A stretch of DNA of 64,000 bases. Origin: Gammaproteobacteria bacterium (GTDB taxonomy: Bacteria > Pseudomonadota > Gammaproteobacteria > SZUA-152). Numbering within the stretch: position 1 is the first letter of the stretch; the number at the start of each line of letters is the position of its first letter. Of this stretch, positions 1-18,851 are shown piece after piece. The notes under the pieces are model-generated. The model was not told where the DNA came from. It searched no databases and saw only the letters and a program-made list of their open reading frames with translations. The stretch lies in the NCBI GenBank assembly GCA_021647705.1, contig JAKIUF010000001.1, positions 62,001 through 126,000 of the forward strand, given 5' to 3'. The position numbers and the translations under genes are program-made.

Positions 1-711
1 ATTTGCCGGACGACGTAAATCAGTATCAGGAATTAAACTTGTTACCCCAGATGCCAAATTTGCCAAAACAAAAATGGGTAATGTGCTTAAATCGACTTGT
101 CCCGCCTTCAGCGCCAAATTGGTTTGCAAGGCTTGATGTTGTGCAACTAAAAAACCATGGCTGCGTACAGCGCCTTTCGGGTTTCCTGTGCTGCCGCTGG
201 TAAATGTAATCAATGCGGGATCATTTGTATTGCGGTGAATAATATCGTTGTTTGCTATTGTTGTATTGGCAGAGCGCCAGTTAATAGCCGCCGGGACATA
301 AACACCAATGAAAAATTTATGCGGAATACGACGTAAGGCCGGACTCAATAGCCGCAATAAATGCGATTTTGTCGTACCAATAAACCCTTGAGGGGCATGT
401 AAATTACAACAATGTGTTATATGCGTTCGCCCGGCTGAAGGGTCAATAAACATTGCAACCAGGCCAAGGCGGAATATTGCGATTAACGTGACATAAAGAT
501 CAATGGAGACGGGTAAAAAAACCAATATTGCATCACCGGGTTTAAAACCTTGCTGGTGCAATAATGCCGCCGCTTTTGCACTTTTTTTGTCCAGTTCAGA
601 AAAACTGCATTGCTGATCAACGCCATGAACAGTGTTGATCAGTGCGATGGCATCCGGGTTGCGTGTAGCCTGTATTTTTATAATTTCACCAATATTCATC
701 TGATTTTTCAT
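1..711 (-). CDS. AMP-dependent acyl-CoA synthetase/ligase, N-terminal part
   Basis: This is an adenylate-forming enzyme that activates a carboxylic acid as its acyl-AMP, usually before transfer to CoA or a carrier. Only the first 237 codons lie in the window; the 3' end is beyond the left edge. The ATP-binding P-loop signature TFTSGSTGNPKG is visible at about residues 166-177, preceded by the usual N-terminal fold. The ATG at 711 lies one base after the stop of the GNAT gene, so it is translationally coupled as the last visible gene of the operon that begins with HMG-CoA reductase. The substrate cannot be read from this part. Family assignment is firm; the role in lipid or natural-product assembly is inferred from context. 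Confidence 0.9.
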   Translation of the reverse strand, partial: MKNQMNIGEIIKIQATRNPDAIALINTVHGVDQQCSFSELDKKSAKAAALLHQQGFKPGDAILVFLPVSIDLYVTLIAIFRLGLVAMFIDPSAGRTHITHCCNLHAPQGFIGTTKSHLLRLLSPALRRIPHKFFIGVYVPAAINWRSANTTIANNDIIHRNTNDPALITFTSGSTGNPKGAVRSHGFLVAQHQALQTNLALKAGQVDLSTLPIFVLANLASGVTSLIPDTDLRRPAN

Positions 712-712
712 A

Positions 713-1738
713 TCATAATTGTTTGTGATAAAGGCTGTAACGACGTATCACTTTGGCATAATGACTGCTGATGTTGCGCGAGCTGTTGTCATCGTACATC
801 AACGCATGTATGGCACGACGATAGCCCATTTTATGTGCGCGGCATTGTGCCTCACCGACTAATAATCCCCCCAGTCCACTACCACGATACTGAGAGGCTA
901 CAGTGACTGTTTTAATGATAAATGTATCGATGGTTTTTCCACGTTGCTTCTGTAATAAATCGGGAATGGCAAACAAATATCCGACAAGCTCACCTTTATG
1001 TTCAGCCAATAAGGTCAAATCTGCTTGCACATACGGTTTGATTTTGGCATACATTTCGATAAATTCGTCTTTATCAATAGAGGTGTAGAGAAAGTTTTCC
1101 TGGAAGCTTGTGACTGAAAGTGCATAAATACGGGTGAGCTCATCGTCAAAATTCATCATATCTAATGAGCGCACGGTAATACCTTGCGCTTCCAGACGCT
1201 GACGAACATCGACTAAACGCTTGTCTTGCACAGTAAGGTCGGTATTTAAGGCGGAGCTGTAACTCGCCATTTCACTAAAACCATTTTCTGTAAATTCATC
1301 AGGCCAGTGATCCGCATTGTCAGGCTCAAGAAAAAAACCTGCTTCATTACCCCTTTCGCTAATAAAGCGATAGTGCCGCCAAGTATTACCATCCATCGGG
1401 CCGACTGCTAGGCTACAACTAGCCTGGCGTAATACATCACAGGCATAAGTTAATAAAAATTCTGTCGCTTTTGGGTTGTCAGAGAAAAAATGTCCGATGA
1501 CACCCAGGCGCTCATTGGGATAAGTGGGTACCATTTTCCACCATAAAGAACAGCGTGCGTGAACTTGCTCGTTTTCATCGATATAAACCGCATGATGGTC
1601 AACTTCATGTGATTGTATTGAATGAATATCAAAATGTTTATAACAAAAACTGTTTTTATAAGCCGTCAGTTGATGCGTATTGATAATGTGAATAACTTTC
1701 GACACTTTATATTTCCCCAAATAAATATAGTGGGACAC
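713..1738 (-). CDS. GNAT-family acyltransferase (341 aa)
   Basis: Probable acyl-CoA-dependent N-acyltransferase. The C-terminal third carries the acetyl-CoA-binding signature QYRGSGLGGLLV at residues 283-294, matching the family's R/Q-x-x-G-x-G/A loop. At 341 residues it is about twice the usual single GNAT domain, so the N-terminal half may be a degenerate second domain or a substrate-binding region. The first 32 bases overlap the end of the upstream CTP-kinase-like gene, and the stop is one base from the acyl-ligase start. The acceptor is unknown. Its place between a lipid-type kinase and an acyl ligase suggests acylation of the pathway product, which is inference. Confidence 0.75.
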   Translation of the reverse strand: MSHYIYLGKYKVSKVIHIINTHQLTAYKNSFCYKHFDIHSIQSHEVDHHAVYIDENEQVHARCSLWWKMVPTYPNERLGVIGHFFSDNPKATEFLLTYACDVLRQASCSLAVGPMDGNTWRHYRFISERGNEAGFFLEPDNADHWPDEFTENGFSEMASYSSALNTDLTVQDKRLVDVRQRLEAQGITVRSLDMMNFDDELTRIYALSVTSFQENFLYTSIDKDEFIEMYAKIKPYVQADLTLLAEHKGELVGYLFAIPDLLQKQRGKTIDTFIIKTVTVASQYRGSGLGGLLVGEAQCRAHKMGYRRAIHALMYDDNSSRNISSHYAKVIRRYSLYHKQL

Positions 1739-3047
1739 TGCTAATTAATGCCGCTGATATTGCTATGCTGCCTTGTCGCCACCACCGTGCATTATCGGTC
1801 GGGCAGTCCTGCATTTGTGGTTGCCAGTGTAGAAATAAATAAGCGGACAAAAAAACAAGCACAGCCGCTATTAGTGCGTAATAGATTGAGCCCAGTGTGA
1901 ATGCTACTATCGTCAATGGAATCAGTAATAATATCCATCCTTGAAAACTTGCTTGAAGTAAAACGCGTGTGTTGTTGAATTCGGCATGATCAAATTTGAT
2001 CCGGGCCAGACCGATCAAGGTTAACTGGACGGCATAGGCCAGAGTATAAGGATAAAGGAGTTGCGGTTGATCTAACCCTCTGGCCAGGAATAAAACCATC
2101 AAACTTGGCATTCCGACACACACCACGGCTTGAATTGAATGGGTGCGTTCCACACGGGTATTTGCATTCAAGTTGAATAAAACATAAGCGATGAATACGG
2201 TGCAAGGTGCAAGTAACCATAACCAACTCTCTACAGACCACGTTACGTAAGCAATTAAAACGAGGCCAAGAATGGCGCTGTCGTCCAGCGTTGTTTTTCG
2301 GCGAATAAGATAAAACCCAACAAGCAATAAAGCCAATACAAATAATTTGAGTATTAACGAATCTGTATCCATGGGTAAATACGTTTTCAATAAAATGAAG
2401 GATCCCAAAGGGATAAACAAGTTATCTAAACCACGCCAAGCAATTGCTTCAAAGAGCATCACTAATATGCCCATAATTAAAGCGATTAATAAGGATTCTG
2501 TGCGCCCCACGTCACTAAACAACAATAAGGGAATATGTACACTTAAAAAGGCAACGGTAAAAAAAGCCAATGAGCCTTCCAGGCTTTTGCTGCCTTCACT
2601 GGTTTTATATTTTACTTGTCCATATCGTACGCCAATCAAGGCTGCCAGGGCATCAGCCAGGGTGAGAATTAAAATAGGAATGCAAAACAGCAAGGCATTA
2701 CCATCAGCTAATACAAATAATAGTGCGACCGCAGCTGGGAAATATATTTCACCCAGTGAATTACGTGATACCCCATGCAATACATCCCCCCATTGCTGGC
2801 GCATGGCCTTATAGTTTTTTAATACCCAAAGGCCGATAATTGTGGATGCGGCCAGGGTGACGACAGGCCATGTTTCATTAAATAACCAGGGGAAGGTGAG
2901 CGTGATACTACCCATCATAATATGCAGTAATTTACGCACGAATTCAGGGTGAGGCGAATAACGAGTTTGGTAGACACGCAAACCCGCAAACAAGGCCAGT
3001 AGCACTAGGGTGACTATCGCCATTGTCAGCCATGGGTTTAAGCTCAT
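1707..3047 (-). CDS. Dolichol/phytol kinase-like CTP-dependent membrane enzyme (446 aa)
   Basis: Polytopic membrane protein of the phosphatidate cytidylyltransferase / dolichol-kinase superfamily (SEC59, VTE5 phytol kinase, CDP-archaeol synthase relatives), whose members use CTP on lipid or polyprenol substrates. Sequence support: RKLLHI at residues 38-43, ADALAALIG at 131-139 followed by RYG, and KSLEGSLAFF at 154-163, the usual CTP-site signatures. About 12 hydrophobic segments follow, and the C-terminal half is an extra membrane region beyond the usual 200-250 residue catalytic part. It overlaps the upstream BtaA-like gene by 4 bases (ATGA). Phosphorylation of an isoprenoid alcohol is the likeliest activity given the neighbouring HMG-CoA reductase and prenyltransferase, but cytidylyl transfer cannot be excluded. 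Confidence 0.75.
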   Translation of the reverse strand: MSLNPWLTMAIVTLVLLALFAGLRVYQTRYSPHPEFVRKLLHIMMGSITLTFPWLFNETWPVVTLAASTIIGLWVLKNYKAMRQQWGDVLHGVSRNSLGEIYFPAAVALLFVLADGNALLFCIPILILTLADALAALIGVRYGQVKYKTSEGSKSLEGSLAFFTVAFLSVHIPLLLFSDVGRTESLLIALIMGILVMLFEAIAWRGLDNLFIPLGSFILLKTYLPMDTDSLILKLFVLALLLVGFYLIRRKTTLDDSAILGLVLIAYVTWSVESWLWLLAPCTVFIAYVLFNLNANTRVERTHSIQAVVCVGMPSLMVLFLARGLDQPQLLYPYTLAYAVQLTLIGLARIKFDHAEFNNTRVLLQASFQGWILLLIPLTIVAFTLGSIYYALIAAVLVFLSAYLFLHWQPQMQDCPTDNARWWRQGSIAISAALISSVPLYLFGEI

Positions 3048-4141
3048 TTCACTTCCTCAACAACATAGGCCATATAGAAAAAAGCCTTGTCCTGGGCGTA
3101 TAAGCGCTCGCTTAACTCCGTTAATGCGTCCAGTTGATCAGCCATGCTGTCGGGGCGGCGTCTCGGTGCAAGCATATTCCAATAGGCTAGGCGTGAGCCG
3201 GGTGTTGATGCTGCAATCAGGCGACGCAGTAAATGTTGATAATTCTCTTCAGACATGTATTCAAAAATATCACTGAGGTTATAGCGATGAATGCGCTGAT
3301 CCTGGTGTTTGTCGAGATAATCCTCTACCGAGAGTAAATGCCATTCAATTTTGTCAATTCTGTCGCGAATGACATCAAAATTTTCTTGGCGTAATGCCAT
3401 CGGCAATGCACTGATGTGTGTGCCGGTTAAAATCCATTGCAGATAAGGGTTTTCTGCGGGATTCAATTCAGTGAGTGCATAGCGGGTATGTTTGAGAATA
3501 TGTTCGGCCACGCTGCCTTCGACATATTGAAAAAAACTGGGGTCACGTCCCATACGTCCCATGACAAAGCGGGAGAAAAATATTTTAAAAATAGCGCGCC
3601 AACGCCAATTATCCCAGGTCTCGTTGTAAAACCGTTCTCGTTCGGCGCGGTCTCCGCCACTAATCAACTGGTCTATGCGGTGACGATTATGTACTAAGGA
3701 TAAAATACGTTGACGAAATAAAGCGAAATAACGTTCAAATTTCCCGGCACTACCAATACCCTGATCAACTTGATCTAAATGTGCATCCCAAAACTGTCTA
3801 GCTTCCGGTGTTAGGCTTTTTCGGCATTTTGTATATAATTCACGGCGTCGCTGACTGGGCCGTGAACCCATCAATTTCAGCAAGCTTTGATGATCCAGGC
3901 AGCGGTATGCTGAAACACGTAATGCCAGACAGGCCAATTGCGCCGGGTTTAAATCTAAAGCAATCACACGGGCAGGATCACGACACAGCATAGCGAGGGC
4001 ATTGTCACCCGCAGAGGAAATCGATAAACAGGTATCCCCCGGTTGTATATCCAACCCTTCTATTAAAATGTCGGCATCTTCCCAAACCTGGGCATAACGA
4101 ATTAGAGAAAAATCTGCTCTGCTTTCTACTTCACTACTCAT
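3044..4141 (-). CDS. BtaA-like (DUF3419) S-adenosylmethionine 3-amino-3-carboxypropyl transferase
   Basis: Member of the DUF3419 family, whose characterised member BtaA transfers the 3-amino-3-carboxypropyl group of SAM to diacylglycerol in betaine-lipid synthesis. The SAM-binding motif LSISSAGDNALAML is at residues 39-52 and the acidic loop ALDLNPAQL at 61-69. The C-terminal part (FEYMSEENYQHLLRRL, then a LAYWNM strand) is typical of the family. Length 365 is slightly short of BtaA. There is no BtaB-like N-methyltransferase beside it, so the product is not obviously a betaine lipid. It overlaps both neighbours by 4 bases (ATGA). Family is firm; the acceptor lipid is unknown. Confidence 0.85.
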   Translation of the reverse strand: MSSEVESRADFSLIRYAQVWEDADILIEGLDIQPGDTCLSISSAGDNALAMLCRDPARVIALDLNPAQLACLALRVSAYRCLDHQSLLKLMGSRPSQRRRELYTKCRKSLTPEARQFWDAHLDQVDQGIGSAGKFERYFALFRQRILSLVHNRHRIDQLISGGDRAERERFYNETWDNWRWRAIFKIFFSRFVMGRMGRDPSFFQYVEGSVAEHILKHTRYALTELNPAENPYLQWILTGTHISALPMALRQENFDVIRDRIDKIEWHLLSVEDYLDKHQDQRIHRYNLSDIFEYMSEENYQHLLRRLIAASTPGSRLAYWNMLAPRRRPDSMADQLDALTELSERLYAQDKAFFYMAYVVEEVK

Positions 4142-6798
4142 AGACTGTCCTCTGCTTCAATTCGCCGTACGGTTCCTCGGCTACCATCCATTTCTACCCA
4201 GTCGCCATCTTTTAGCCAGCGGGTGACTCCGCTGATAGATACAATAGCCGGTATGCCCATTTCTCGCGCTACGATTGCGGAATGTGACAATAAACTGCCT
4301 CGCTCGACCAGTAATGCCGAGGCGGAAGGAAATAGCATAATCCATCCTGGATCCGTACGTTCTGCCACCAGTATTTCACCGGCTTTCAGTTTTGCATTAC
4401 GCGGGTCAGTTATGACTCGTACGGGACCGCGTACAATACCGGGGCAACAGGCGATACCTTTTGCAAAGTCCCCCTCCGTTTCTTCGGGAGCATGCGCACT
4501 TTCAAAACGATTGCCGTGATGAACAATGCCATAAGTATCAAAGCGGTCAGCAGGTGCTGGCATTGTTTCATAAGTATCAAACTCAGCTCGCCGTAAGGCA
4601 ATCAAACCTTTCAATGATACTAATGAGGTTGTGCCTTCCACTACCCCCATGATTTCATTGACTTCCAGATAAAAAATATCTTTCGGTTTTGCCAACATGT
4701 CAACGTCGGTAAATCGCTTGCCAAGCTCGACAAAGATACGTCGAACATGACCAAATAAGCGTGTTCGTTCAAAACGTAGATTTTCCCTGTCACGCACGCG
4801 ATGACGGGCATGTTTCAGCACCCAGTTAAACACGGATTTTTTAATACCCTTGTTACCTAAGCTATCGATCACTTTTTGTTCTGCCTGTGCCCTGATAGTT
4901 GCTTCAACATTATTGCCTGATACGTCAGGGTCAGTTTGCAAGCGTTTTGCCAGTTGGCCCACAGAACAAAATAATAAACCGGGATCATCATGCAGAGTAA
5001 TGCTTTCGAGTTTCAATTCATCCAGGCAGCGGTCGCCAAATTTATTAAGATAATCTTCAATATGTTGCGCCAGTACGGGGCGTTCACTGATTGCCTGATG
5101 AATTTCCGTCAGGTTTGCGTCACATAAAAGATCAATCATTGCGGTGTCGTCAATTAATAATTTCGCCATCGTGCGTACACGTTGCGCAGGTTCCGCACTG
5201 ATCATTCCGCCTTCTCCGCAGAGCAGGTCATTATGCAATGTATCATCTTTATCGTGACACCATTTGACGGTTAACTTGCTTAATACGCCATGAAAAATCA
5301 TCGCAAAAAAATCATTGACTAATGGCGCATCCCAGCGTGTCAATAATTGTTGCTCTAATTCATGATAATGATGGCATAAGGCATCGGCACGCAGAGTTGA
5401 CAGTGTTTGATAATCCGTTTTCAGTGCCTTGTTTAAACGCGCATAAAAACGGTCTATCGTTTTTGGTAATGTGAAATGGTTGACAATCAAGCCGCCAAAC
5501 ATGTTGAGTAAATTCAAGCCATCACGAAACCGGGCTCCACCACTGGCCTGACTTAATTCGGAGACTATGGCATCAGGTAGACCTTCTTTAACGCCCATCA
5601 TTTGTTCCATAAAAGGACGATTAAACGTAAAACCTGGCAACATGGCTAATACACGGTACCAGGACAGCATGTTGTAATAGACACGCCCTCGAATGAGCCC
5701 CAGCATACGCCGATAAGTGGTGTCATTGTCATCAATAACGTGAGAGGGCACCTTTAGAATTCGACAAAACTGACGGTACACTTCTTCATAAGCCTTACTG
5801 GCAAATGAAAATGTTAAGGGTGTTGTCACTCCGCCATAACTTTCAGCAATATTACTGTTATCCCAGATATTTAATGCCCCTTCGGGGTCAGCCATGTCGG
5901 CCAATGAGGTGATGGGGCGTGATTGCAGCAGGTATAATTCACCTTGATGGTAAGCCCATTCGATATCTTGCGGACAATTAAAGTGTTGACTGGTTGTGCG
6001 GACCAAATCTGCCACGGCCAGAATCTGAGCATCATTTAATGATGCTTGGTTTATTTTTTCATCGGCAACTGCTTTGGCGCTAACGCCTTCATCCTGGCTA
6101 TTATCAAAATGATGAGCAAAACGTTTTTCTGCAATATCCCGTTGAATAATATTATTTTTTAAATCGACGTGAAAGGTATCCGCATCAACATCTCCTGACA
6201 CCAGGGCTGTACCCAAACCATATAAAGCGCCTATTACTGCCACTGAGCGATGGCCCGTCACCGGGTCGGCGGCAAATGCCACGCCTGATACTTCGGCATC
6301 AATCATACGTTGTATCAATACCGCAGGCACTTCCGGCATTAATGACAAGCCGGCTTCTTGCCGGTAAGACAAGACCCGTTCACTGAATCCTGAGCGCCAG
6401 ACATCAACAACTCTTTGCGCCACTGTTGCTTTATCAACAAATAAATAGCTTTCCAGTTGGCCTGCAAACGAATGGTTTTCGCCATCTTCATCGACGGCTG
6501 ATGAACGTACGGCCACTGGCTCACCTGCTGGGCAAAGCTGTGACATTGCTTTATTCAGCGCGGTGAGAAAATCATCACTTAATACCAATTGATCCAATAT
6601 TGTCTGAAATTGGGTTATTTCATCCGCGACCGTTAAGTCATGATATTGTTCATCGCTTATACAGGATTTAAAGGCCAGGGGGCTAACCACAAACCAGGCG
6701 GGAATAGAAAGCTGTGTCGCACTTAATTCAGCTAAAGCATTGGCTTTGCCGCCGAGCAGGTGACTGCCATGCGCGCCTGGAAACAATATATTACTCAT
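4138..6798 (-). CDS. Rifampicin-phosphotransferase-like PEP/pyruvate-binding dikinase (886 aa)
   Basis: ATP-dependent dikinase of the PEP-synthase superfamily. An ATP-grasp domain occupies roughly residues 1-320 (GGKANALAEL at 16-25, VRSSAVDEDGENHSFAGQ from 97, QSRPIT near 306). A large variable middle domain follows. The C-terminal swivelling phosphohistidine domain has GSLLSHSAIVAREMG, catalytic His839. The PEP/pyruvate TIM barrel of true PEP synthase is absent. This order (ATP-grasp, acceptor domain, His domain) is that of rifampicin phosphotransferase, so the beta-phosphate of ATP probably goes to a small acceptor. I chose the ATG at 6798 because it forms an ATGA overlap with the UbiA stop; an in-frame start at 6864 would reach 70 bases into that gene. 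A pathway intermediate is the inferred acceptor. Confidence 0.85.
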   Translation of the reverse strand: MSNILFPGAHGSHLLGGKANALAELSATQLSIPAWFVVSPLAFKSCISDEQYHDLTVADEITQFQTILDQLVLSDDFLTALNKAMSQLCPAGEPVAVRSSAVDEDGENHSFAGQLESYLFVDKATVAQRVVDVWRSGFSERVLSYRQEAGLSLMPEVPAVLIQRMIDAEVSGVAFAADPVTGHRSVAVIGALYGLGTALVSGDVDADTFHVDLKNNIIQRDIAEKRFAHHFDNSQDEGVSAKAVADEKINQASLNDAQILAVADLVRTTSQHFNCPQDIEWAYHQGELYLLQSRPITSLADMADPEGALNIWDNSNIAESYGGVTTPLTFSFASKAYEEVYRQFCRILKVPSHVIDDNDTTYRRMLGLIRGRVYYNMLSWYRVLAMLPGFTFNRPFMEQMMGVKEGLPDAIVSELSQASGGARFRDGLNLLNMFGGLIVNHFTLPKTIDRFYARLNKALKTDYQTLSTLRADALCHHYHELEQQLLTRWDAPLVNDFFAMIFHGVLSKLTVKWCHDKDDTLHNDLLCGEGGMISAEPAQRVRTMAKLLIDDTAMIDLLCDANLTEIHQAISERPVLAQHIEDYLNKFGDRCLDELKLESITLHDDPGLLFCSVGQLAKRLQTDPDVSGNNVEATIRAQAEQKVIDSLGNKGIKKSVFNWVLKHARHRVRDRENLRFERTRLFGHVRRIFVELGKRFTDVDMLAKPKDIFYLEVNEIMGVVEGTTSLVSLKGLIALRRAEFDTYETMPAPADRFDTYGIVHHGNRFESAHAPEETEGDFAKGIACCPGIVRGPVRVITDPRNAKLKAGEILVAERTDPGWIMLFPSASALLVERGSLLSHSAIVAREMGIPAIVSISGVTRWLKDGDWVEMDGSRGTVRRIEAEDSL

Positions 6799-7715
6799 GA
6801 CACACTCCACACTGACCACAACATAGGCATAGCTCCCAGAGACAAGTACATTAACAAGGTCCAAATACCGGAAATCAATTCAAAACGTTTTGCGGTTTTT
6901 GGCTCACGATTTTTTATAAACCGGTATCCGGTTATCAACGCAAAACTTAATAATACGGTTAACAACATCGCTACTGGTACAATAAATCCCACTTTCCACG
7001 CCGCCATTAACGCACATAGCGTTGTTAGCCCCAGCGCTGCTAACCAAGCGGCAACCGCACGTCGCGCACCCCATAACACCGTATAAGTTTCTACACCTTT
7101 TTCTTCATCTTGCGGTGCCCGTATTTTTCGCCCGACTTCGATAACAACGCCATTAAAAAAGCTCACTAATAAAAACCAGAACAGGCCGGATGGCATTCCT
7201 TCTCCTGCCAGCCACCAGTCACATGCCGTTGCATAAAGATCAATCAACGGCATGATCAACATGTGGCTCCACATATAGGTTAATGGCCTTGCTTTAAGCC
7301 AGTCATGAACAAAAAACTCTTTACTCATCAGGGCTAGGTACAACCAGACCAGTAGCAATAAACCGACCAGGCCGGGTGCCAGCCAAAGGGCTAATAATAG
7401 TTGCACCAGCATACTGCCAGCGGCGACCCAGCCCAGTTCTCGTAAACTGACCAGACCGCGTGGTACCGGGCGATATGCACGGTAACGGCAGTCCTCTTCA
7501 TGGTCTTTGAATTCATCTGCAATGCGTAATTGTAGAAATAACAATAATGCGGTTAAAAATGCGACCAGACTGGGTAGTAAGTCCGGTATGCTTATATCAC
7601 CGCGCAACAATGATGAATAACATAAAGCAGAAAAGCTGAACGCTATGACCAAAGGTCCATGAGCCAACACGGGAAAACGTTCGCGTTGATAGATCCACCA
7701 ACGATTAGTTAACAT
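6795..7715 (-). CDS. UbiA-family prenyltransferase (306 aa)
   Basis: Integral-membrane prenyltransferase that would join an isoprenyl diphosphate to an acceptor. The first Asp-rich site is DEFKDHEED at residues 67-75, followed by the family's YRPVPRG segment (81-87). The second polar site is at about 189-211 (EVGRKIRAPQDEEKG), with Asp203, Glu204 and Glu205. There are eight or nine hydrophobic segments. The usual Asn opening the first motif (NxxxDxxxD) is replaced by Ala-Asp, so it is not a standard UbiA or MenA. It starts two bases after the last base of the HMG-CoA reductase stop and ends in an ATGA overlap with the dikinase. It could be a DGGGP-synthase-like lipid enzyme or an aromatic prenyltransferase; the sequence alone does not decide. 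Confidence 0.85.
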   Translation of the reverse strand: MLTNRWWIYQRERFPVLAHGPLVIAFSFSALCYSSLLRGDISIPDLLPSLVAFLTALLLFLQLRIADEFKDHEEDCRYRAYRPVPRGLVSLRELGWVAAGSMLVQLLLALWLAPGLVGLLLLVWLYLALMSKEFFVHDWLKARPLTYMWSHMLIMPLIDLYATACDWWLAGEGMPSGLFWFLLVSFFNGVVIEVGRKIRAPQDEEKGVETYTVLWGARRAVAAWLAALGLTTLCALMAAWKVGFIVPVAMLLTVLLSFALITGYRFIKNREPKTAKRFELISGIWTLLMYLSLGAMPMLWSVWSVS

Positions 7716-7716
7716 C

Positions 7717-8982
7717 TTAGCCTCGTGCTAACGACTGGTGGGCGCTTGCAAAATGATCAGCACAAAGCGCACCGATAATGGATAATTCACCCGCTAATGA
7801 GACTGACGCGCAGACTTCCGCCAGGGCTTGTGCTTTACCTTGTCCCCCCAGGCCCATAATATCGAGGCAGGCACGTTGGCTAGGCAAGCCTGTGCCGCCA
7901 CCGACCGTACCAACAATGAGATTAGGTAAGGTCACTGCGGCATATAAATCGCCTTCTGCCGTCACTTCAAAGCGGGTTACTCCTACGGAAGATTCTGATA
8001 CGCACGCGGCATCCTGACCACAGGCAATATAAAATGCGGCGAGACCATTTGCATAGTGTCCTTGTACGCCGATAGTGCCACTTAGCACGCCACCTAAAGC
8101 AGACATTCGCCAATAATCAACCATGCGAGTAACGGTTGTGTGTAAGGTTTTTTTGACCAGTTCTGCCGAAATGACCACTTCGGCGGTGACTTTTTTGCCC
8201 CTGACTGACTGAAATGATTGTGCGCAGGCTTTTTTATCCCCGGAGAGGTTGGCCTCAATAAAGGCATAATCTATATTGACCGGGCTTGCTTGTTTTATGT
8301 ATTCAAAAATGGCATGAGTCGCAATCGTCACCATATTTTGTCCTGAAGCATCCCCGGTGAGATATTCAAAATTCAAATACACATGGTTTCCTTCAACCGT
8401 GACCCGCATATCCTGTAACTTGCCAAACCGTGTTGTCGCTTCAGCTAAACGTTTAAATTCATCAATTTGACCGAGCGTCCATGCGACAAAGGCACCTGCA
8501 TCGATCAACGATTTAAAGGCAAAGCCGGGGGCTCGGCTTACTCCTTCATTCAGTAACAAAGCCGTACATCCACCCGCTTTCGTCATCAGGGTGGCTCCCC
8601 GGCTGTACGAAGCCACTAATGCAGCCTCACTGGTGGCCAGAGGCACATAATAATCGCCTTGTGCAAAGAGCCCATTTACTCGTAGTGGTCCGGCAATTCC
8701 CACAGGCAGCTTTACTGTGCCGATGAAATTTTCAATATTGCGCTGGTAAACCGCTTGCTGTTCTTTAGTGCGTTCGTCCAGGAGTTCCTGTTGGACAGAT
8801 GCATCACAATCCAGCGTTTTCCAGCGCTGGGTAACGGTCTTCTCAGTAATTCGAGGGTCTCGCGGTATACTGTGAGCAGGCGTATCGTGCTTTGGAGAAA
8901 GCCGGTCTTTTAGCTGCTCAAGGCTGTATTTTTTAAGCAAGTGCCCCAAATGTTTATTGGCCTGATGTTGTTGAGTTGCCAT
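7717..8982 (-). CDS. 3-hydroxy-3-methylglutaryl-CoA reductase
   Basis: Reduces HMG-CoA to mevalonate, the committed step of the mevalonate pathway. All four catalytic positions of the class I family can be placed: Glu84 in ENFIGTV, Lys250/251 in SGDKKAC, Asp324 in CGQDAA and His410 in CADHFASAH. The substrate loops LATSEAALVASYSRG and VGTVGGGTGLPSQ are also present. The 421-residue length is that of the soluble catalytic domain, with no membrane anchor. A GAGGA ribosome-binding site lies 7 bases before the ATG. It is the first gene of the seven-gene minus-strand operon. Most gammaproteobacteria use the MEP pathway, and no other mevalonate gene is visible here, so its presence is notable and may indicate transfer. 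Confidence 0.95.
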   Translation of the reverse strand: MATQQHQANKHLGHLLKKYSLEQLKDRLSPKHDTPAHSIPRDPRITEKTVTQRWKTLDCDASVQQELLDERTKEQQAVYQRNIENFIGTVKLPVGIAGPLRVNGLFAQGDYYVPLATSEAALVASYSRGATLMTKAGGCTALLLNEGVSRAPGFAFKSLIDAGAFVAWTLGQIDEFKRLAEATTRFGKLQDMRVTVEGNHVYLNFEYLTGDASGQNMVTIATHAIFEYIKQASPVNIDYAFIEANLSGDKKACAQSFQSVRGKKVTAEVVISAELVKKTLHTTVTRMVDYWRMSALGGVLSGTIGVQGHYANGLAAFYIACGQDAACVSESSVGVTRFEVTAEGDLYAAVTLPNLIVGTVGGGTGLPSQRACLDIMGLGGQGKAQALAEVCASVSLAGELSIIGALCADHFASAHQSLARG

Positions 8983-9278: not shown

Positions 9279-10403
9279 ATGGCTGATAAACTTGATTTAA
9301 AACATCGCTGGAGTATCGGCCATAATCATATGAGCGGTATTACTGCCGGAAAATGGTGGCAGTTGTTACGCGATGTCAACTTTGATGTTGATGCTGTCTA
9401 TGCCCACCGGGTTGCTTTTATTTCATTACTGAGCCTCAATAATTCATTGTGGGCCGCCATTGAAAAAATGCGCTACCAGAAAAAAATTGATCAGGTCGAG
9501 CGAGTACATCCTCCTGTTTTTGTGCTTGGTCATTGGCGTAGTGGAACGACGCACCTGCATAATCTCTTTTGTCAGGATGTTGAGCAATTTGCTTACCCAA
9601 ATACCTATCAAGCAATCAACCCCTATACTTTTTTAAGCACTGAAAATATCAACACGCGATTGTTTGGATGGTTGTTGCCAAAAACACGCCCTATGGACAA
9701 TATGGCGATGTCATTTTCTGAGCCGCAAGAAGATGAGCTGGGCCTCAGCATGGTTTGTTTACGGTCCCTGTATTTTGGCATCACCTTTCCTCGTCTGGAA
9801 AAGCATTTTTCTCAATACCTGACCTTTGATAATGCTGAACCTCAGGCGCGTGAAGATTTCAAGCAGGCATTAGCGTGGTTTGTGCGTAAGCTCACTCTTA
9901 AATATGACAAACCTATTGTTATTAAGTCCCCCTCACATACCGCGCGTATAAAATTACTGCTGGAGTTATACCCCGATGCACGTTTCGTTCATATTCACCG
10001 AAACCCCTATGAGGTGTTTCTCTCGTCGCAGAAATATCATGATACCGCCACCTGGTATACCTATTTGCAAAGACCGGACCGTAATTTTCTTGATGATGAA
10101 ATTCTTCGACGCTATGTAATGCTGTTTGATGGTTTTTTTGCCGGTCGTGATTTAATTCCTGACGGACAGTTTCATGAAATGAGTTTCTGTGAACTGGAGG
10201 CAGCTCCCCTGGAAACGATGCGAAACACTTATAATGCATTGGGTCTCTCTGGGTTTTCAAAGGCTGAACCAAGGTTAAAAAACTACATCAGTTCATTAAA
10301 AAACTACAAAAAAAATGATCATCCTGAATTATCCGCACATTTTCGCCAGCGTGTTGCTGAAAACTGGGGTCGGTCATTTGATACCTGGGGGTATGAGCGC
10401 TAA
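9279..10403 (+). CDS. PAPS-dependent sulfotransferase-family protein (374 aa)
   Basis: Cytosolic-type sulfotransferase that would transfer sulfate from PAPS to a hydroxyl or amine. The 5'-phosphosulfate loop VFVLGHWRSGTTHLHNL is at residues 80-96, with the Arg-Ser-Gly-Thr-Thr core. The 3'-phosphate region RFVHIHRNPYEVFLSSQ begins near residue 234. No signal peptide or membrane segment is seen. Its TAA overlaps the ATG of the P450 gene by one base (TAATG), so the two are translated together. It is divergent from the HMG-CoA reductase operon. Sulfation of a hydroxyl introduced by the P450 is a natural reading but is inferred. Confidence 0.85.
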   Translation: MADKLDLKHRWSIGHNHMSGITAGKWWQLLRDVNFDVDAVYAHRVAFISLLSLNNSLWAAIEKMRYQKKIDQVERVHPPVFVLGHWRSGTTHLHNLFCQDVEQFAYPNTYQAINPYTFLSTENINTRLFGWLLPKTRPMDNMAMSFSEPQEDELGLSMVCLRSLYFGITFPRLEKHFSQYLTFDNAEPQAREDFKQALAWFVRKLTLKYDKPIVIKSPSHTARIKLLLELYPDARFVHIHRNPYEVFLSSQKYHDTATWYTYLQRPDRNFLDDEILRRYVMLFDGFFAGRDLIPDGQFHEMSFCELEAAPLETMRNTYNALGLSGFSKAEPRLKNYISSLKNYKKNDHPELSAHFRQRVAENWGRSFDTWGYER

Positions 10404-11695
10404 TGCCTACGCTTGCTCCAGGCCCTAAAGGTTTGCCGTTTATCGGCTGTCTTCCCGAGCTGAAAAAAGATGTGCTGGGTTTAATGATGCGCTCATTTGC
10501 AGGCTATGGTGATATTGTCCGGTTTAAAATGGGCCCTATGACGATACATCTGGTTAGTCATCCCGATGATATTAAGCGTGTACTTAAAAACAGAAATGCC
10601 TTCGATAAACAAACGCGAACCTCCAAGGTAATACGCCAAGTTACTGGTGAAAGCGTACTGGTTAACAATGGCGATGCCTGGGAGCGTCATCGCCGCTTAT
10701 TGCAGCCCGCTTTTGCACCACTGGAACTTAAACGGTTTTTCACTGTTATCTCTGAAGCGACAGATGAGTTAATTACTGAACTGGAAACCATTGCAGACCG
10801 CAAAAAACCCGTTGATATTGCCTCTTATATGATGCGTATCACTTACCGCATTATCGAAAAATCCTTATTCAGTACGGATGCCAATACCGATATGGGGGCG
10901 CTGGAACAAGCCATTGCTGTTGTGCTGGCCGATACCTACCGTCGTATTGAACAACCTTTCAGTATCCCTCATTGGTTACCGACGCCACGTAATCGCGCTT
11001 ATCATCGTGCCATGACTTTGCTGAATGAACGTGTTTATTTGCTGATTAGTGAACACTATGCACAAACGGGCGATGATTTATTACACCGTCTTTGTCGTGA
11101 TACATCATTTACTGATACTGAAATGCGTAATGAGGTCATCTCCCTGCTTATTGCGGGGCATGAAACCACCGCAAATGCACTCACATGGTTTTGGCATCTT
11201 CTTGCTCAACACCCGGATGCAGAGGAGGCCATTCTCAGTGAATTGCCAAATGGACCCATTACCGCTCAAGACCTTTCCTCACTGGAAGCAACAACGCGTA
11301 CTGTTAATGAAGTCATGCGACTTTATCCGCCCATTTGGGCTATTGTCAGGCGAGTTGTGGGTGAGCAAGAGCTGGGCGGGTATGATTTGGCCGCAGGCTC
11401 AAGTTTGGTGATTAGTCCTTACGTGGTTCATCGGCATCCTGAGTTTTGGACAGCCCCGGACAAGTTTGACCCGCAACGCCAACAGCCCGATCACCATTAT
11501 GCCTGTATTCCGTATGGTGGCGGACCAAGATTGTGTATCGGGCATAATTTCGCGAGGATGGAAGCGGATATTATTGTCGCTAAGCTCATGCAACGATTTC
11601 GCTTTAAACCTCTGCCAGACCATCCTGTGGAAGCACATGCCAGTATCGTATTACGGCCACGTCAGGGGTTAAAAGTGATTGTGGAATCCCGATGA
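10403..11695 (+). CDS. Cytochrome P450 monooxygenase (430 aa)
   Basis: Haem-thiolate monooxygenase for hydroxylation of a lipophilic substrate. The oxygen-binding I-helix motif AGHETTAN is near residues 251-258 and the K-helix ExxR (EVMRLYPP) near 302. The haem loop YGGGPRLCIGHNFARME places the cysteine ligand near 377. There is no N-terminal membrane anchor and no fused reductase, so redox partners must come from elsewhere. Translationally coupled to the upstream sulfotransferase. The motif style resembles bacterial fatty-acid or terpene hydroxylases, but the substrate cannot be assigned. The 67 bases to the convergent glutamine-synthetase-like gene show no obvious terminator. Confidence 0.93.
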   Translation: MPTLAPGPKGLPFIGCLPELKKDVLGLMMRSFAGYGDIVRFKMGPMTIHLVSHPDDIKRVLKNRNAFDKQTRTSKVIRQVTGESVLVNNGDAWERHRRLLQPAFAPLELKRFFTVISEATDELITELETIADRKKPVDIASYMMRITYRIIEKSLFSTDANTDMGALEQAIAVVLADTYRRIEQPFSIPHWLPTPRNRAYHRAMTLLNERVYLLISEHYAQTGDDLLHRLCRDTSFTDTEMRNEVISLLIAGHETTANALTWFWHLLAQHPDAEEAILSELPNGPITAQDLSSLEATTRTVNEVMRLYPPIWAIVRRVVGEQELGGYDLAAGSSLVISPYVVHRHPEFWTAPDKFDPQRQQPDHHYACIPYGGGPRLCIGHNFARMEADIIVAKLMQRFRFKPLPDHPVEAHASIVLRPRQGLKVIVESR

Positions 11696-14455: not shown

Positions 14456-16735
14456 ATGTTGCTCAAATTGAACTTCAGTTTCACGTCATGGCCACTATTT
14501 CTAGTGATCTTAAGCACATCGTTATTATTTTCCTGTATGCCGGTTCCTGGTGATGAGGAAAAAGAAGATGATATAACGACAGGCAACGATTGCACTACAG
14601 TGCCGGATTTATTCACAAAAACAGTATGGCCGTCTGTCAGGGGAATTTGTGTTGATTGTCACAACCCGGGAGGGGTAGCCAATAATACCCGATTAGTTTT
14701 TAGCCAAGATGCTGATAAACAGACCGAAAACTACAATGTGTTACGGAATTTTTCTTTAGGCAATGCTGTAACGTTGTTAAACAAAACCATTGGATTACCT
14801 GTACACGGTGGTGGTGCCCCGTATGTTGATCAGTCCCAGCAGGAATATCAGAACTTGGATAGTCTGATTTCAGTGATGGAGAGAGAGTGTGGGGCGACAT
14901 CCACCGTTTCATTCTTTGATGATGTTCAGTTTTACAGTGAACAGGAAACACTGAAAAAAGCGGCGATTGTATTGGCTGGAAGACGCCCTGCGGTTAGTGA
15001 GCTTAATGCCGTGGCGGCAGGTGGGGAAGACAGCTTGCGAGTGACAATACGCAATATGATGCAGGGAGAGCGCTTTGAGCGTTTTTTGTCAGAAACGGCC
15101 AACAATCATTTTCTCAGTACAGGCCTTTCAGGTGGGGCAAATCGTTACCCGGTCGCCAGTGACTATCCAAAAGTAGATGACATTGCCAATAACACCGAGC
15201 GGACCATCTTTCGTGCAGCTGTACAGCAAGAGCCGCTGCAATTGCTTCGGTACATTATACGCAATGAGCTCCCTTACACAGAAATTTTAACCGCAAATTA
15301 TACTGTCGTGAATCCCGTTTTGGCGTCTATTTATGAGGCTGATGTACCAGGAGGATTTGATAATGAAATGGATAATTCGGAATGGCGGAAAGCAACGATT
15401 CCTGAGATGTTGCGTTTTGGAAGAATATATCCTCATGCGGGTGTATTAACCACTCACGCATGGCGGCAGCGTTTCCCTACGACAGCATCGAATCGTAATC
15501 GTCAGCGTGCAAAAATGGTATTGCTCCAGTTTTTAGGCGTAAATCTAGAGGCGTTGGCACAGCGCCCACTGGTAAGCGAAAGCCCGTTTCTTGTACCAAC
15601 GCTGGAAGATCCTGCTTGTACTTCTTGCCATAATATAATGGACCCGGTGGCTGGAGCCTTTCAAAACTGGGCAGACCTCAATCGATATCGACGATTCAGT
15701 GCTAACACGACGGCGCTTCCCTCTAGTTATAGAGGAAATAATTATCCGAGAGATGCTGATGGTAATGCTTATTATCAACGAGGGGATAATTGGTTTCGTG
15801 ATGTACTTCCACCGGGGTTTAACGGAGTTCTTGCACCAGGGGGGCATGAGGGAAATGAGGCAGCATTGCAGTGGCTTGGGCAAGAAATGGCGAAGGATAG
15901 CCGGTTTTCTATGGGAGCCGTCCATTTTTGGTATCACGGGCTATTTGGTGAAAAAGTATTAACCTCGCCGGGTGATAGCAGTGCCGCAGACTATCAAAAA
16001 CGCTTGAACGCTTTTAATGCCCAAGACAAAATTTTCCGGGAAATTGCAGCCCGCTTTCCCGATGACCGGGGCCATGGCGCTTACAATGTGAAAGACCTTC
16101 TGGTTGATTTGATTACCAGTCAATGGTTTCGGGCGTCGGGCATAGCGGAAGATGTTGCAGAAGAGCGGGCTATCGAGCTGGAAGCCGTCGGATCATATCA
16201 CTTGCTGACCCCAGAGCAGCTTTCGCGGAAAATGGAAGCGACAATGGGTGAATCCTGGAGTCGGCTGATGCCAATTACAAGAAGTTATGGTCTTCTTTAT
16301 GGCGGGTTTAATGCGAGAAACCTGATCGAAAGAAATACCTCAATCACTACCGTGCTCAATGCAGTATTGGAACGTATGGGCAATGAAGTTGGCTGTGATA
16401 TTGTCAAAAATGATTTTTTGGAATCAACGGACCAGCGTTTATTATTTCCCCTTGTTGAGTTAAATCACACGCCTGACAATGCCAGGGAAAATATTCTGCT
16501 CAATATTCAATACTTGCATAATCACATGTTAGGCGAGTTGTTGGCATTGGATGCTACTGAATTACTGCAAACGTACGACCTTTTTCAGGAGGTTTGGGAA
16601 AACCGTGATATTGCTCCGGAGGTTACATTGCGATGTAGTCTTAATAATCAAAATGATGCTGAATATAGCGGTCGCTCCTGGGTGATCGTGTTGTTGTATT
16701 TGATGAATGACCCACGATATATATACAGCTATTAA
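14456..16735 (+). CDS. Two-haem c-type cytochrome lipoprotein, DUF1592/DUF1588-like (759 aa)
   Basis: Exported lipoprotein with lipobox LLFSC (Cys27) and two c-haem sites, CVDCH at residues 65-69 and CTSCH at 388-392. Between and after them the sequence resembles the DUF1592/DUF1588 modules of planctomycete-type cytochromes: RNRQRAKMVLLQFLG before the second haem, then an NIMDPV segment after it. The size and one-haem-per-half layout suggest a surface or periplasmic electron carrier or oxidase; the activity is unknown. A GAGG Shine-Dalgarno precedes the ATG by about 10 bases. It is followed after 29 bases by a Tat-exported DUF1501 protein, a recurrent pairing for this family. Confidence 0.75.
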   Translation: MLLKLNFSFTSWPLFLVILSTSLLFSCMPVPGDEEKEDDITTGNDCTTVPDLFTKTVWPSVRGICVDCHNPGGVANNTRLVFSQDADKQTENYNVLRNFSLGNAVTLLNKTIGLPVHGGGAPYVDQSQQEYQNLDSLISVMERECGATSTVSFFDDVQFYSEQETLKKAAIVLAGRRPAVSELNAVAAGGEDSLRVTIRNMMQGERFERFLSETANNHFLSTGLSGGANRYPVASDYPKVDDIANNTERTIFRAAVQQEPLQLLRYIIRNELPYTEILTANYTVVNPVLASIYEADVPGGFDNEMDNSEWRKATIPEMLRFGRIYPHAGVLTTHAWRQRFPTTASNRNRQRAKMVLLQFLGVNLEALAQRPLVSESPFLVPTLEDPACTSCHNIMDPVAGAFQNWADLNRYRRFSANTTALPSSYRGNNYPRDADGNAYYQRGDNWFRDVLPPGFNGVLAPGGHEGNEAALQWLGQEMAKDSRFSMGAVHFWYHGLFGEKVLTSPGDSSAADYQKRLNAFNAQDKIFREIAARFPDDRGHGAYNVKDLLVDLITSQWFRASGIAEDVAEERAIELEAVGSYHLLTPEQLSRKMEATMGESWSRLMPITRSYGLLYGGFNARNLIERNTSITTVLNAVLERMGNEVGCDIVKNDFLESTDQRLLFPLVELNHTPDNARENILLNIQYLHNHMLGELLALDATELLQTYDLFQEVWENRDIAPEVTLRCSLNNQNDAEYSGRSWVIVLLYLMNDPRYIYSY

Positions 16736-16764
16736 ATACGCTTCAATTTAATCAGGAGACTATG

Positions 16765-18069: not shown

Positions 18070-18074
18070 GCGCT

Positions 18075-18581
18075 ATGCATCATACTATTCCGGTTTGTAT
18101 CCTGATTTTAATTGTTTTCATCGTTCTGTCTGCCCCGGCAAACTCAGCAAAAATTGGCGATTCATATCCCATAACGCTGCCGTCCCTGTTCGATAGCAAA
18201 AAAAATATTTCATCAAATGATTTCAAAGAAAAAGTTCTCTATGTGGACTTTTGGGCTTCGTGGTGTATTCCATGTAGAAAGTCGTTACCACAATTGAATG
18301 AATTGAGGGAACGCTTAAAACGTAACGGCAAAGACTTTGAAATTCTGGCGATAAACCTGGATAGCGACCCAAATGAGGCGATAGCATTTTTGAATAAATA
18401 CCCTGTTGACTATCCTGTTGTATATGACGCCGAGGGAAAATACCCAAAGCTTTATGGCGTAAAAGGTATGCCGACATCTTATATTTTGGACCTTCAAGGG
18501 AAAATTAGATATGTACACAGTGGATTCAGAAGTAGTGACATCAAAAAAATTGAGGCACTGGTTCATGAGATGCTGCCTTAA
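18075..18581 (+). CDS. TlpA/ResA-like periplasmic thioredoxin (168 aa)
   Basis: Periplasmic thiol-disulfide oxidoreductase. A hydrophobic signal segment occupies residues 5-22. The redox site WASWCIPCRKS has cysteines 64 and 67, and the cis-proline loop is GMPTSY. Length is normal for TlpA/ResA proteins that reduce cysteines before haem attachment or keep partner thiols reduced. It lies between a c-type cytochrome pair and a small lipoprotein with a cysteine tail, so either could be its client. Its last 17 bases overlap the chosen start of the DUF4266 gene. Confidence 0.9.
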   Translation: MHHTIPVCILILIVFIVLSAPANSAKIGDSYPITLPSLFDSKKNISSNDFKEKVLYVDFWASWCIPCRKSLPQLNELRERLKRNGKDFEILAINLDSDPNEAIAFLNKYPVDYPVVYDAEGKYPKLYGVKGMPTSYILDLQGKIRYVHSGFRSSDIKKIEALVHEMLP

Positions 18582-18822: not shown

Positions 18823-18851
18823 TCTGAGACTAACTAAAGAGGCCGTTATTG

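Follow-up and report, generated by a model that had tools for sequence, protein, structure and literature searches.

What does a gammaproteobacterium make with seven tightly coupled genes that place a relative of HMG-CoA reductase among enzymes of prenyl, phosphoryl, aminocarboxypropyl and acyl transfer? The genes lie at one end of the 64,000-nucleotide stretch of DNA analysed here (the window). An earlier note on this DNA had held the combination to be uncharacterised and, indeed, no description of it was found in the CC-licensed PMC literature. The eLife ‘lipocone’ paper (PMC12419801), in which both HMG-CoA reductase and UbiA are mentioned, was considered as a candidate description and rejected, the relevant passages concerning other operons.

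Organization of the operon

All seven genes are encoded on the reverse strand. The first specifies an HMG-CoA-reductase-like protein (7717–8982, 421 aa; PF00368, 390.6 bits) and is followed by a UbiA-superfamily membrane transferase (6795–7715, 306 aa; PF01040, 61.4 bits) and a PEP-synthase/rifampin-phosphotransferase-like (RPH-like) phosphotransferase (4138–6798, 886 aa; PPDK_N and PEP-utilizers). The start of the latter was set at the ATG at 6798, within the ATGA overlap with the UbiA stop, the mechanical open reading frame being 4138–6864. Next come a DUF3419 (BtaA-family) 3-amino-3-carboxypropyl transferase-like protein (3044–4141, 365 aa; PF11899, 236.7 bits, 6.6e-70), a membrane protein resembling CTP-dependent lipid kinases and the CdsA superfamily (1707–3047, 446 aa), a tandem-GNAT N-acyltransferase-like protein (713–1738, 341 aa; PF13527, 26.2 bits for a cut-off of 25) and, last, an AMP-forming acyl ligase (1–711; PF00501). 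This ligase runs 873 bases past the window edge: 237 of its 527 aa (L002:17128-18711) lie inside the window and the remainder in L002:17128-18000. Pfam cut-offs were exceeded for HMG-CoA_red, UbiA, PPDK_N and PEP-utilizers, DUF3419, GNAT and AMP-binding; the same search gave the CTP-kinase-like protein no match of its own.

One-base gaps separate the reductase from UbiA (7715/7717) and the GNAT from the ligase (711/713). Four-base overlaps join UbiA to the RPH-like gene (6795–6798), the latter to DUF3419 (4138–4141) and DUF3419 to the CTP-kinase-like gene (3044–3047), which in turn overlaps the GNAT gene by 32 bases (1707–1738). The earlier note had described all six junctions in this way, and its family assignments for the seven genes are supported as well. 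A promoter and terminator scan upstream of the first gene returned one site, about the number expected by chance, on the opposite strand.

Divergent from the operon, on the forward strand, stands a sulfotransferase gene (9279–10403; PF13469), itself adjoined by a cytochrome P450 gene (10403–11695, forward strand; PF00067). The sulfotransferase also adjoins the operon in its closest relative, locus L006 (84% identity), where the P450 has a 78% relative; a 38% P450 relative lies directly upstream of the GNAT gene in L017. Both enzymes are possibly tailoring functions outside the core, the sulfotransferase a lineage-specific one.

Conservation across genomes

Synteny was counted in 80 loci collected by their DUF3419 protein. 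All seven families were present in 33 of these, spread over six phyla, and 32 had an identical gene order; at least five families were found in 60 loci (33 with seven, 17 with six and 10 with five), many of the loci with fewer families being truncated by contig ends. The check proposed in the earlier note, co-occurrence of five or more of the families elsewhere, thus gives a positive answer. Where at least 6 kb was available on both flanks (42 loci), 25 loci held seven families, 12 held six and three held five, and only two held DUF3419 alone. By our own informal estimate, this synteny goes far beyond what chance would give. A class sample of 369 evenly drawn genomes, which were not selected by DUF3419, agrees with the 80-locus result: operon-type DUF3419 occurred in seven genomes and operon-type reductase in eight, and in all six genomes holding both the two genes lay 4.5–5 kb apart inside the operon.

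The occurrence of the operon is patchy (7/369, 8/191 and 7/188 genomes), and a complete copy is carried on a Roseinatronobacter plasmid. Twelve clostridial loci have a six-gene form that lacks the reductase, in the order DUF3419-kinase-GNAT-ligase-UbiA-PPDK, and 7 kb of other genes separates kinase and GNAT in L017. Parts of the set can also stand alone, since DUF3419 was found by itself in L053 and L073 and with GNAT in L057. In G024, the 16.9 kb that were read hold PPDK and DUF3419 but none of the other families, and in G127 the 16 kb that were read hold an operon-type reductase outside any such operon.

Distances between components correlate in all 21 pairs. Permutations reached correlations as high in 0/200 cases for each pair when Clostridia were included and in at most 7/200 when they were left out, the weak pairs being then UbiA-DUF3419 and UbiA-kinase (rho 0.30 and 0.31, respectively; 7/200 permutations). 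Two gene fusions were also encountered: the kinase-like protein with UbiA in L038, by which both may be linked to a common substrate, and a PPDK-acyl ligase-carrier protein fusion in L081; the clostridial ligase of L080 has no carrier domain. Family clustering had further linked PPDK to AMP-ligases, a link traced to second AMP-ligases and one real fusion, and the antisense cluster c5 is presumably an artefact of reading frames in GC-rich loci. Around the operon, no further family recurred in more than six loci, although small families of related Clostridia were only partly identified; an MMPL exporter lies beside it in five loci.

The seven genes travel and evolve together, and they probably constitute one dedicated pathway that is patchily distributed in distant bacteria. 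The co-expressed pathway proposed from the window is supported, and its synteny, conserved across phyla, extends well beyond the source genome.

The reductase, an HMG-CoA reductase relative probably outside the mevalonate pathway

In common with class I HMG-CoA reductases of the mevalonate pathway, the operon enzyme belongs to the Pfam family and retains the catalytic residues: Glu559, Lys691, Asp767 and His866 (human numbering) are kept in 39, 40, 39 and 39 of 40 operon reductases, the rest being gaps. However, S684 is replaced by Glu in 40/40, and position 735 is never Lys in these 40; both changes are likewise found in 8/8 operon-type rows of the class sample, whereas both residues are retained in 11/11 canonical rows. 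In the window enzyme, E243 and M293 occupy the positions of Ser684 and Lys735. K735 forms a salt bridge to the HMG carboxylate, according to a passage of PMC9500038. Since 11/11 intermediate HMGR-like proteins from other contexts lack this lysine too, losing it is not by itself a mark of the operon pathway. In the tree, the operon reductases fall on one side of a branch that separates them from canonical HMGR (SH-aLRT 97). They further differ from the class I enzymes in being part of a seven-gene operon and in mostly having no synthase partner.

This last point comes from a check of 28 operon genomes (27 of the 80 loci and the source genome). DXR was found in 23, and a match to HMG-CoA synthase (PF08540) in two. 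In the source genome (G000) the match is flanked by genes for an acyltransferase, two enoyl-CoA hydratases and a ketosynthase, a gene content that polyketide beta-branching cassettes have, and it was rejected as a mevalonate gene; in G063 it lies in a distinct mevalonate cluster that includes a reductase of its own. The six-frame search gave this G063 synthase no more than 21 bits, which means that a divergent synthase could be missed, and leucine breakdown could be a source of HMG-CoA. Salvage of prenols by Clostridia lacking an isoprenoid route was also considered and set aside, with IspG in 9/12 and MDD_C in 0/12 clostridial genomes. DXR was not found in the three clostridial genomes tested for it (G062, G065 and G066), and IspG was absent from G062 and G066, which may reflect incompleteness.

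Neither the genomic surroundings of the operon reductase nor its active site fit the mevalonate pathway. The role in isoprenoid supply that it had been given is not supported, in view of the two synthase matches, the 23 genomes with DXR and the changed HMG-carboxylate residues. We propose instead that it would be an acyl-thioester-to-alcohol reductase with a remodelled acid pocket. Its absence from the clostridial form, and from a few further ones, makes it look like a supply step.

The membrane proteins

UbiA enzymes usually use prenyl diphosphates. In the operon UbiA, the first Asp motif is kept (D67, D71 and D75 invariant in 20/20), and the second is replaced by E..RK (E193, R196 and K197 invariant in 20/20); in an alignment to the DGGGP synthase 6m31, a weak profile match, the KDxxD positions read R-K-x-x-A. 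Since the usual second motif is lost, a prenyl diphosphate donor is uncertain. The isoprenoid-linked lipid with an amino-acid head group that the earlier note had suggested is a possible product.

For the CTP-kinase-like protein, the kinase assignment is weak. DUF92 was detected weakly in 4/20 orthologues (best E 5e-4), and a PDB profile search with the family gave a single chance match. Foldseek returned nothing at E 0.001 for the model, the best match of residues 44–225 being CdsA 4q2g with a probability of 0.97 but an E of 0.15; the VIA comparison with 4q2g (Z 8.3, 162 aligned, rmsd 5.0) shows a similarity that common helical arrangements also reach. The protein has an extra C-terminal membrane domain, and this half of the model had no convincing match among those listed.

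Phytol salvage relies on the kinases VTE5 and VTE6 together with a UbiA-type homogentisate phytyltransferase. It thus shares with the operon the coupling of a CTP-dependent lipid-alcohol kinase, in the operon a putative relative, to UbiA, the two being fused in L038. However, the similarity of the operon kinase is weak, its UbiA has the second Asp motif replaced, and the operon adds a reductase, DUF3419, a GNAT and a ligase.

The RPH-like enzyme, the GNAT and the ligase

The RPH-like enzyme consists of an ATP-grasp domain, a large middle domain and a His domain, and at least 90% of the 54 rows compared retain its SLLSH motif; its best solved relatives are 5fbs and 5hv1. This layout, in which ATP-grasp and swivelling His domains flank a large central one, is shared with rifampin phosphotransferase and PEP synthase. 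The operon enzyme differs from them in standing in a biosynthetic operon, in lacking the C-terminal PEP/pyruvate-binding barrel (only PF01326 and PF00391 were found) and in scoring below the NCBIfam cut-offs (317.7 bits against 999 for the Rph model NF041857; PEP synthase models also below theirs). Relatives in the PPDK family include the prodigiosin ligases PigC and RedH.

A PDB profile search with the GNAT protein gave weak matches only. Its AlphaFold model (pLDDT 91.9) matched tandem GNATs best, with 7q3a at Z 22.6 (rmsd 4.2, 287 aligned) and MshD 2c27 at Z 20.3 (rmsd 3.7, 267 aligned).

In NCBIfam, the best models for the ligase were PRK09274 and then OleC-type ones, all below cut-off (for OleC, 240.0 bits where 850 are required and 239.2 bits where 900 are required). 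Olefin synthesis is therefore near in model ranking, and the ligase of a variant cluster (G296, below) is fused to an alpha/beta hydrolase; however, the score is far under the OleC cut-off, and no further olefin-pathway family recurs.

A variant cluster

In G296 (L133:9715-17705), an HMGR-like reductase is fused to an APH kinase and accompanied by a CDP-alcohol transferase-CarS fusion, a formyltransferase, the hydrolase-AMP-ligase fusion and a UbiA; its ligase and UbiA match the operon types at 447 and 200 bits. No DUF3419 was found in the 20 kb read, nor any published description of this cluster. Both systems combine an HMGR-like reductase, an AMP-ligase, a UbiA, a kinase and a CTP enzyme, the last of these putative in the operon, but the kinase is of APH type and sits on the reductase in G296 where the operon has the RPH-like enzyme, and a formyltransferase takes the place of the GNAT. 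The cluster supports a pathway logic in which reduction comes first and phosphorylation and CTP chemistry come after it.

A proposed pathway and its alternatives

On balance, we consider it probable, by a modest measure of confidence, that the seven genes encode a pathway to an undescribed membrane-associated amphiphile that uses a rebuilt HMGR relative. The ligase would activate a carboxylic acid, and the reductase, its HMG-carboxylate site rebuilt around an invariant Glu, would convert the thioester to a primary alcohol with four electrons. Pathway alcohols may be phosphorylated by the RPH-like enzyme and the putative CTP-dependent kinase, to the mono- and then perhaps the diphosphate, and UbiA would use the activated lipid, or accept it, in a transfer reaction within the membrane. 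DUF3419 is predicted to form a homoserine-type ether by transferring the 3-amino-3-carboxypropyl group of SAM to a hydroxyl, the amine of which would be acylated by the tandem GNAT, and the MMPL exporter may move the product in some hosts; the order of steps is likewise putative. Of the chemistry initially read from the window, 3-amino-3-carboxypropyl transfer, acyl activation and transfer, and phosphoryl transfer are supported.

A broader reading, more tentative as a whole and in our view somewhat short of probable, is that HMGR has been rebuilt outside the mevalonate pathway to reduce a non-HMG acyl thioester to the alcohol on which a whole unknown class of bacterial lipids is based. These would carry an N-acylated homoserine-type ether and a chain phosphorylated by the RPH- and CTP-dependent enzymes and transferred by UbiA, with relatives of the pathway in hosts as far apart as cyanobacteria, verrucomicrobia and gut Clostridia, and G296 would be a second such pathway, its reductase fused to the kinase that acts on the reductase's product.

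Alternatively, the operon could be a biosynthetic cluster whose product is not a membrane lipid but is secreted, a small specialised metabolite with a tail made by the lipid-like steps. The patchy occurrence and plasmid copy, the P450 and sulfotransferase adjoining the operon in the window and L006, and the kinship of PPDK-family proteins with PigC and RedH are consistent with such a product, but no regulator or resistance gene recurs in more than six loci among the families identified, UbiA and the kinase-like protein both belong to the membrane, DUF3419 has lipid-enzyme kin, and the exporter, where present, is of MMPL type; we regard this origin as rather unlikely.

A variant of betaine lipid synthesis, in which DUF3419 acts on diacylglycerol and the lipid so made is altered or regulated by the rest of the operon, appears improbable. 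BtaA and BtaB produce DGTS, the acceptor of BtaA being diacylglycerol, and the operon shares with this system a SAM:3-amino-3-carboxypropyl transferase of the DUF3419/BtaA family in a lipid context, surrounded by membrane enzymes. However, no BtaB-like methyltransferase recurs around the operon in more than six loci, and six extra enzymes are present, among them the RPH-like enzyme, UbiA and the reductase, that are not known to take part in betaine lipid synthesis. Moreover, the operon DUF3419 is a distinct subfamily, sharply separated in the class sample (above 490 bits, versus at most 194 for the others).

Finally, that the reductase makes mevalonate for isoprenoids used by the same-operon UbiA is very improbable: its Pfam score, its intact catalytic residues and the usual UbiA substrates speak for it, but the synthase, DXR and active-site results stand against it, and the operon has no further recurrent gene of the mevalonate route.

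Implications

Several named isolates hold the whole operon or most of it, so that a search for the product is possible now: all seven families are present in Haloferula sp. BvORR071 and Roseinatronobacter sp. S2, and five were found in Microcoleus sp. FACHB-1515 and in Phormidium tenue FACHB-886. If the pathway to an undescribed amphiphile is real, a widespread bacterial lipid or lipid-like metabolite would have gone unnoticed, with Clostridia of animal guts among its makers. Name-based family models would call its reductase a mevalonate HMGR in bacteria of the MEP pathway and would likewise miscall the RPH-like enzyme a PEP synthase. HMGR, a much-studied drug target, would then have a relative in nature that acts on another substrate and offers a testable case of how the HMGR pocket gets re-specified.

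A coupled operon and its distribution

Seven coupled minus-strand genes had been read at window 1-8982, and this layout is borne out in every checkable detail. Indeed, taken in gene order (HMG-CoA reductase-like reductase, UbiA, dikinase-like protein of the PPDK type, DUF3419 protein, kinase-like protein, GNAT and AMP-forming ligase), the junctions are a 1-base gap, a 4-base overlap (ATGA), two further 4-base overlaps, a 32-base overlap and a 1-base gap. The dikinase-like ORF is listed with a TTG start at 6864; we placed its start at 6798, because an ATG there overlaps the UbiA stop. The ligase is complete (527 aa) and extends 873 bases past the edge of the window, which occupies C78:62001-126000 within a 4.4 Mb draft genome. 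Divergent from the operon lies a sulfotransferase and P450 pair (window 9279-11695), retained in the closest relative, locus L006; a P450 relative also stands before GNAT in locus L017. Further along, window 14456-20003 holds a DUF1592 and DUF1501 pair, then a DUF3570 protein, adjoining uncharacterised families, and 32208-34661 a Ser/Thr protein kinase fused to a CHASE2 sensor.

To look beyond this genome, one genome per species from 84,980 species was scanned with a DUF3419 protein pattern, which yielded 94 relatives, the best 80 of which were used as loci. The operon, put forward in the earlier note as a candidate undescribed system, is widespread and not a local accident: 33 of these 80 loci contain all seven families by profile models (six in 17, five in 10, four in nine, three in six, two in two and one in three); many short loci end at contig edges. 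Of the 42 loci flanked on either side by 6 kb or more, 25 have seven families, 12 six, three five and two a single one. The exact gene order recurs in 32 of the 80, including L017, where 7 kb of other genes nevertheless separate the kinase from GNAT.

According to record titles, loci with all seven genes come from Pseudomonadota, Cyanobacteriota, Deinococcota (Trueperaceae), Verrucomicrobiota, Thermodesulfobacteriota (Geobacteraceae) and Planctomycetota, and forms with five or six genes additionally from Acidobacteriota, Elusimicrobiota, Krumholzibacteriota, Chloroflexota and Bacillota; both taxon names and locus edges call for caution, since most records are metagenome bins. The clostridial form (12 loci, some from animal gut by title) has the order DUF3419-kinase-GNAT-ligase-UbiA-PPDK, without the reductase. 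In a cultured alphaproteobacterium, Roseinatronobacter sp. S2, the entire set lies on a plasmid, with kinase and GNAT annotated as hypothetical proteins and the reductase spanning the record start (its two pieces match PF00368 positions 24-194 and 197-368). In the verrucomicrobial loci L014 and L055 the dikinase-like protein shares only about 25% identity, and in L015 none was seen before the contig end; these are perhaps another functional variant. In L002, the locus that contains the complete ligase of the window operon, a beta-lactamase-family hydrolase (15988-17070) follows the AMP-ligase on its strand after 57 bases, and further downstream are genes resembling, by eye, aldehyde and iron-type alcohol dehydrogenases.

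As these loci were retrieved through DUF3419, we also considered 369 genomes drawn evenly from the window's class, chosen independently of it. Operon-type DUF3419 was detected in seven (more than 490 bits; next match 194) and operon-type reductase in eight (more than 530 bits; next match 408.5). Both are present in six genomes, in every case inside the operon and separated by 4.5-5 kb. The exceptions are G265, whose reductase and UbiA end a 3.2 kb contig, G127, which has a reductase but no operon within the 16 kb read, and G024, where the 16.9 kb read holds PPDK and DUF3419 alone. DUF3419 was further found in two of 40 near relatives, one being the window's own genome, and in two other groups, in 8/191 genomes (seven already among the known loci) and 7/188 (two already known). 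The operon is thus accessory, carried by a few percent of species.

Its components evolve together. Pairwise-distance Spearman correlations are positive in all 21 family pairs (0.38 to 0.90, with 0/200 permutations as high in each), and with Clostridia excluded they range from 0.30 to 0.83, at most 7/200 permutations being as high. Two natural fusions also tie operon parts together: in L038, kinase and UbiA form a single 563-aa protein, with no second UbiA in that operon, and in L081 one protein of 1421 aa joins the dikinase-like part to an acyl ligase and a carrier protein. The clostridial L065, L066, L080 and L083 have another acyl ligase after the dikinase-like gene; a carrier domain accompanies it in L065, L066 and L083 and was not found in L080. 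No further family recurs around the operon in more than six of the loci. An MMPL/RND-type exporter lies in or beside it at five (L035:6714-9062, L038:3729-5996, L070:7707-9881, L071:7721-9850 and L084:4464-6590), hinting at an exported lipid.

A reductase with an altered pocket

The window reductase is a strong HMG-CoA reductase match, its nearest solved relative being 6hr7. We compared 40 aligned operon copies (human numbering); the pocket residues are listed in PMC3875450. The catalytic Glu, Lys, Asp and His are retained in every row with a letter at these positions, as are R590, N686, D690, K692 and N755. At the two positions that hold the HMG carboxylate, all 40 copies depart from the canonical enzyme: Ser684 is replaced by Glu, and Lys735 by Met, Leu, Ile, Val, Ala or Phe. 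In the class sample, whose alignment took in the 30 best loci only, 8/8 operon-type reductases have Glu684 and lack Lys735, and 11/11 canonical copies retain Ser684 and Lys735; the column matching 735 differs by one between the two alignments, Lys being absent there in both. Eleven further HMGR-like proteins of intermediate score also lack Lys735, with Ser at 684 in seven and Glu in four. In a quick-search tree, one branch (SH-aLRT 97) separates the 45 operon copies and another (SH-aLRT 96) the 14 canonical ones. We infer a substrate without a carboxylate where HMG has one; the invariant Glu684 may be a binding site for an amine or a hydroxyl group.

Eight HMGR-like proteins without Lys735 form a second clade in the window's class, with quite different neighbourhoods (L099-L102 and L104-L107; wider context L128-L130, L132 and L135-L139). 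These, likewise, are perhaps not mevalonate enzymes.

Genome content agrees with this reading of the pocket. The 28 operon genomes considered comprise the window's own and 27 that carry one of the 80 loci; 23 of the 28 have DXR of the MEP pathway, and two have an HMG-CoA synthase match. The synthase of the window's own genome (L087:1657-9977, contig C43) sits with acyltransferase, two enoyl-CoA hydratase and ketosynthase genes, a polyketide-type cassette, and was rejected as a mevalonate gene. The other, in a Woeseiaceae bin (G063), belongs to a mevalonate cluster (L086:3840-10178) with diphosphomevalonate decarboxylase and a 743-aa fusion of mevalonate kinase to a reductase of the other class (TIGR00532, 396 bits); this genome therefore holds two reductases for two tasks. 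A divergent synthase could escape detection, as the six-frame search gave that of G063 only 21 bits, and leucine breakdown is, as a caution, another possible source of HMG-CoA. A reductase is present in 24/28 genomes, as a single copy except in G063 (two partial matches in G064 were counted as one broken gene). None was found in the other four, which comprise three Clostridia and also Oscillatoria princeps, at whose locus UbiA, PPDK, DUF3419, GNAT and ligase are present. DXR (TIGR00243) had no match in the Clostridia G062, G065 and G066, which may carry a divergent form. IspG was seen in nine of the 12 clostridial genomes with the operon.

The other six enzymes and a candidate pathway

UbiA retains its first Asp motif, but the second is replaced by E..RK; the donor that it uses may therefore differ from an ordinary prenyl diphosphate. 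The dikinase-like protein combines ATP-grasp and His domains without the PEP/pyruvate barrel, a make-up like that of rifampin phosphotransferase, and falls below the cut-off of the named models (PEP synthase subfamily 813.6 of 883, Rph 317.7 of 999, PigC 322.5 of 1300). The kinase-like protein has a confident predicted fold (pLDDT 88.6), whose residues 44-225 resemble CDP-DAG synthetase, but within the range of chance helical matches; its second half had no convincing structural match among those listed. DUF92, the family of phytyl-phosphate kinase, matched 4/20 kinase-like orthologues. GNAT is modelled as a tandem GNAT (pLDDT 91.9) with the fold of mycothiol synthase and N-myristoyltransferase, and the ligase is nearest the PRK09274 and OleC models, below cut-off.

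Each of these families is already known. A search of openly licensed PMC articles found no account of the pathway, the product or a non-mevalonate role of the reductase, and a prior description elsewhere is possible; within the same scope, no paper that mentions DUF3419 concerned bacterial operons by its title. Around the observed gene grouping and altered reductase pocket, a pathway can be outlined whose substrates, step order and product we infer from the enzyme families. An acid would be activated by the AMP-ligase and reduced by the reductase, an intermediate would be phosphorylated, and UbiA transfer, aminocarboxypropyl transfer and N-acylation would follow, with export in some hosts. We regard this outline as slightly more probable than not, and any fixed order of its steps as less so.

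A variant cluster in genome G296 (L133:9715-17705) opens with a fusion of an HMGR-like reductase and an APH-type kinase; after it come a CDP-alcohol phosphotransferase-CarS fusion, a formyltransferase, a hydrolase-AMP-ligase fusion and UbiA. Its ligase is operon-type (447 bits) and its UbiA operon-like (200 bits); its reductase lies on a long branch of the tree, its exact kinship being unsure. A formyltransferase also adjoins UbiA, PPDK and ligase in L033. The G296 cluster possibly represents a sister pathway, and these two cases so point to a shared theme, in which an activated acid would be reduced to an alcohol, with phosphorylation, CTP chemistry, amine acylation or formylation and UbiA transfer, and in which parts may be swapped for analogues.
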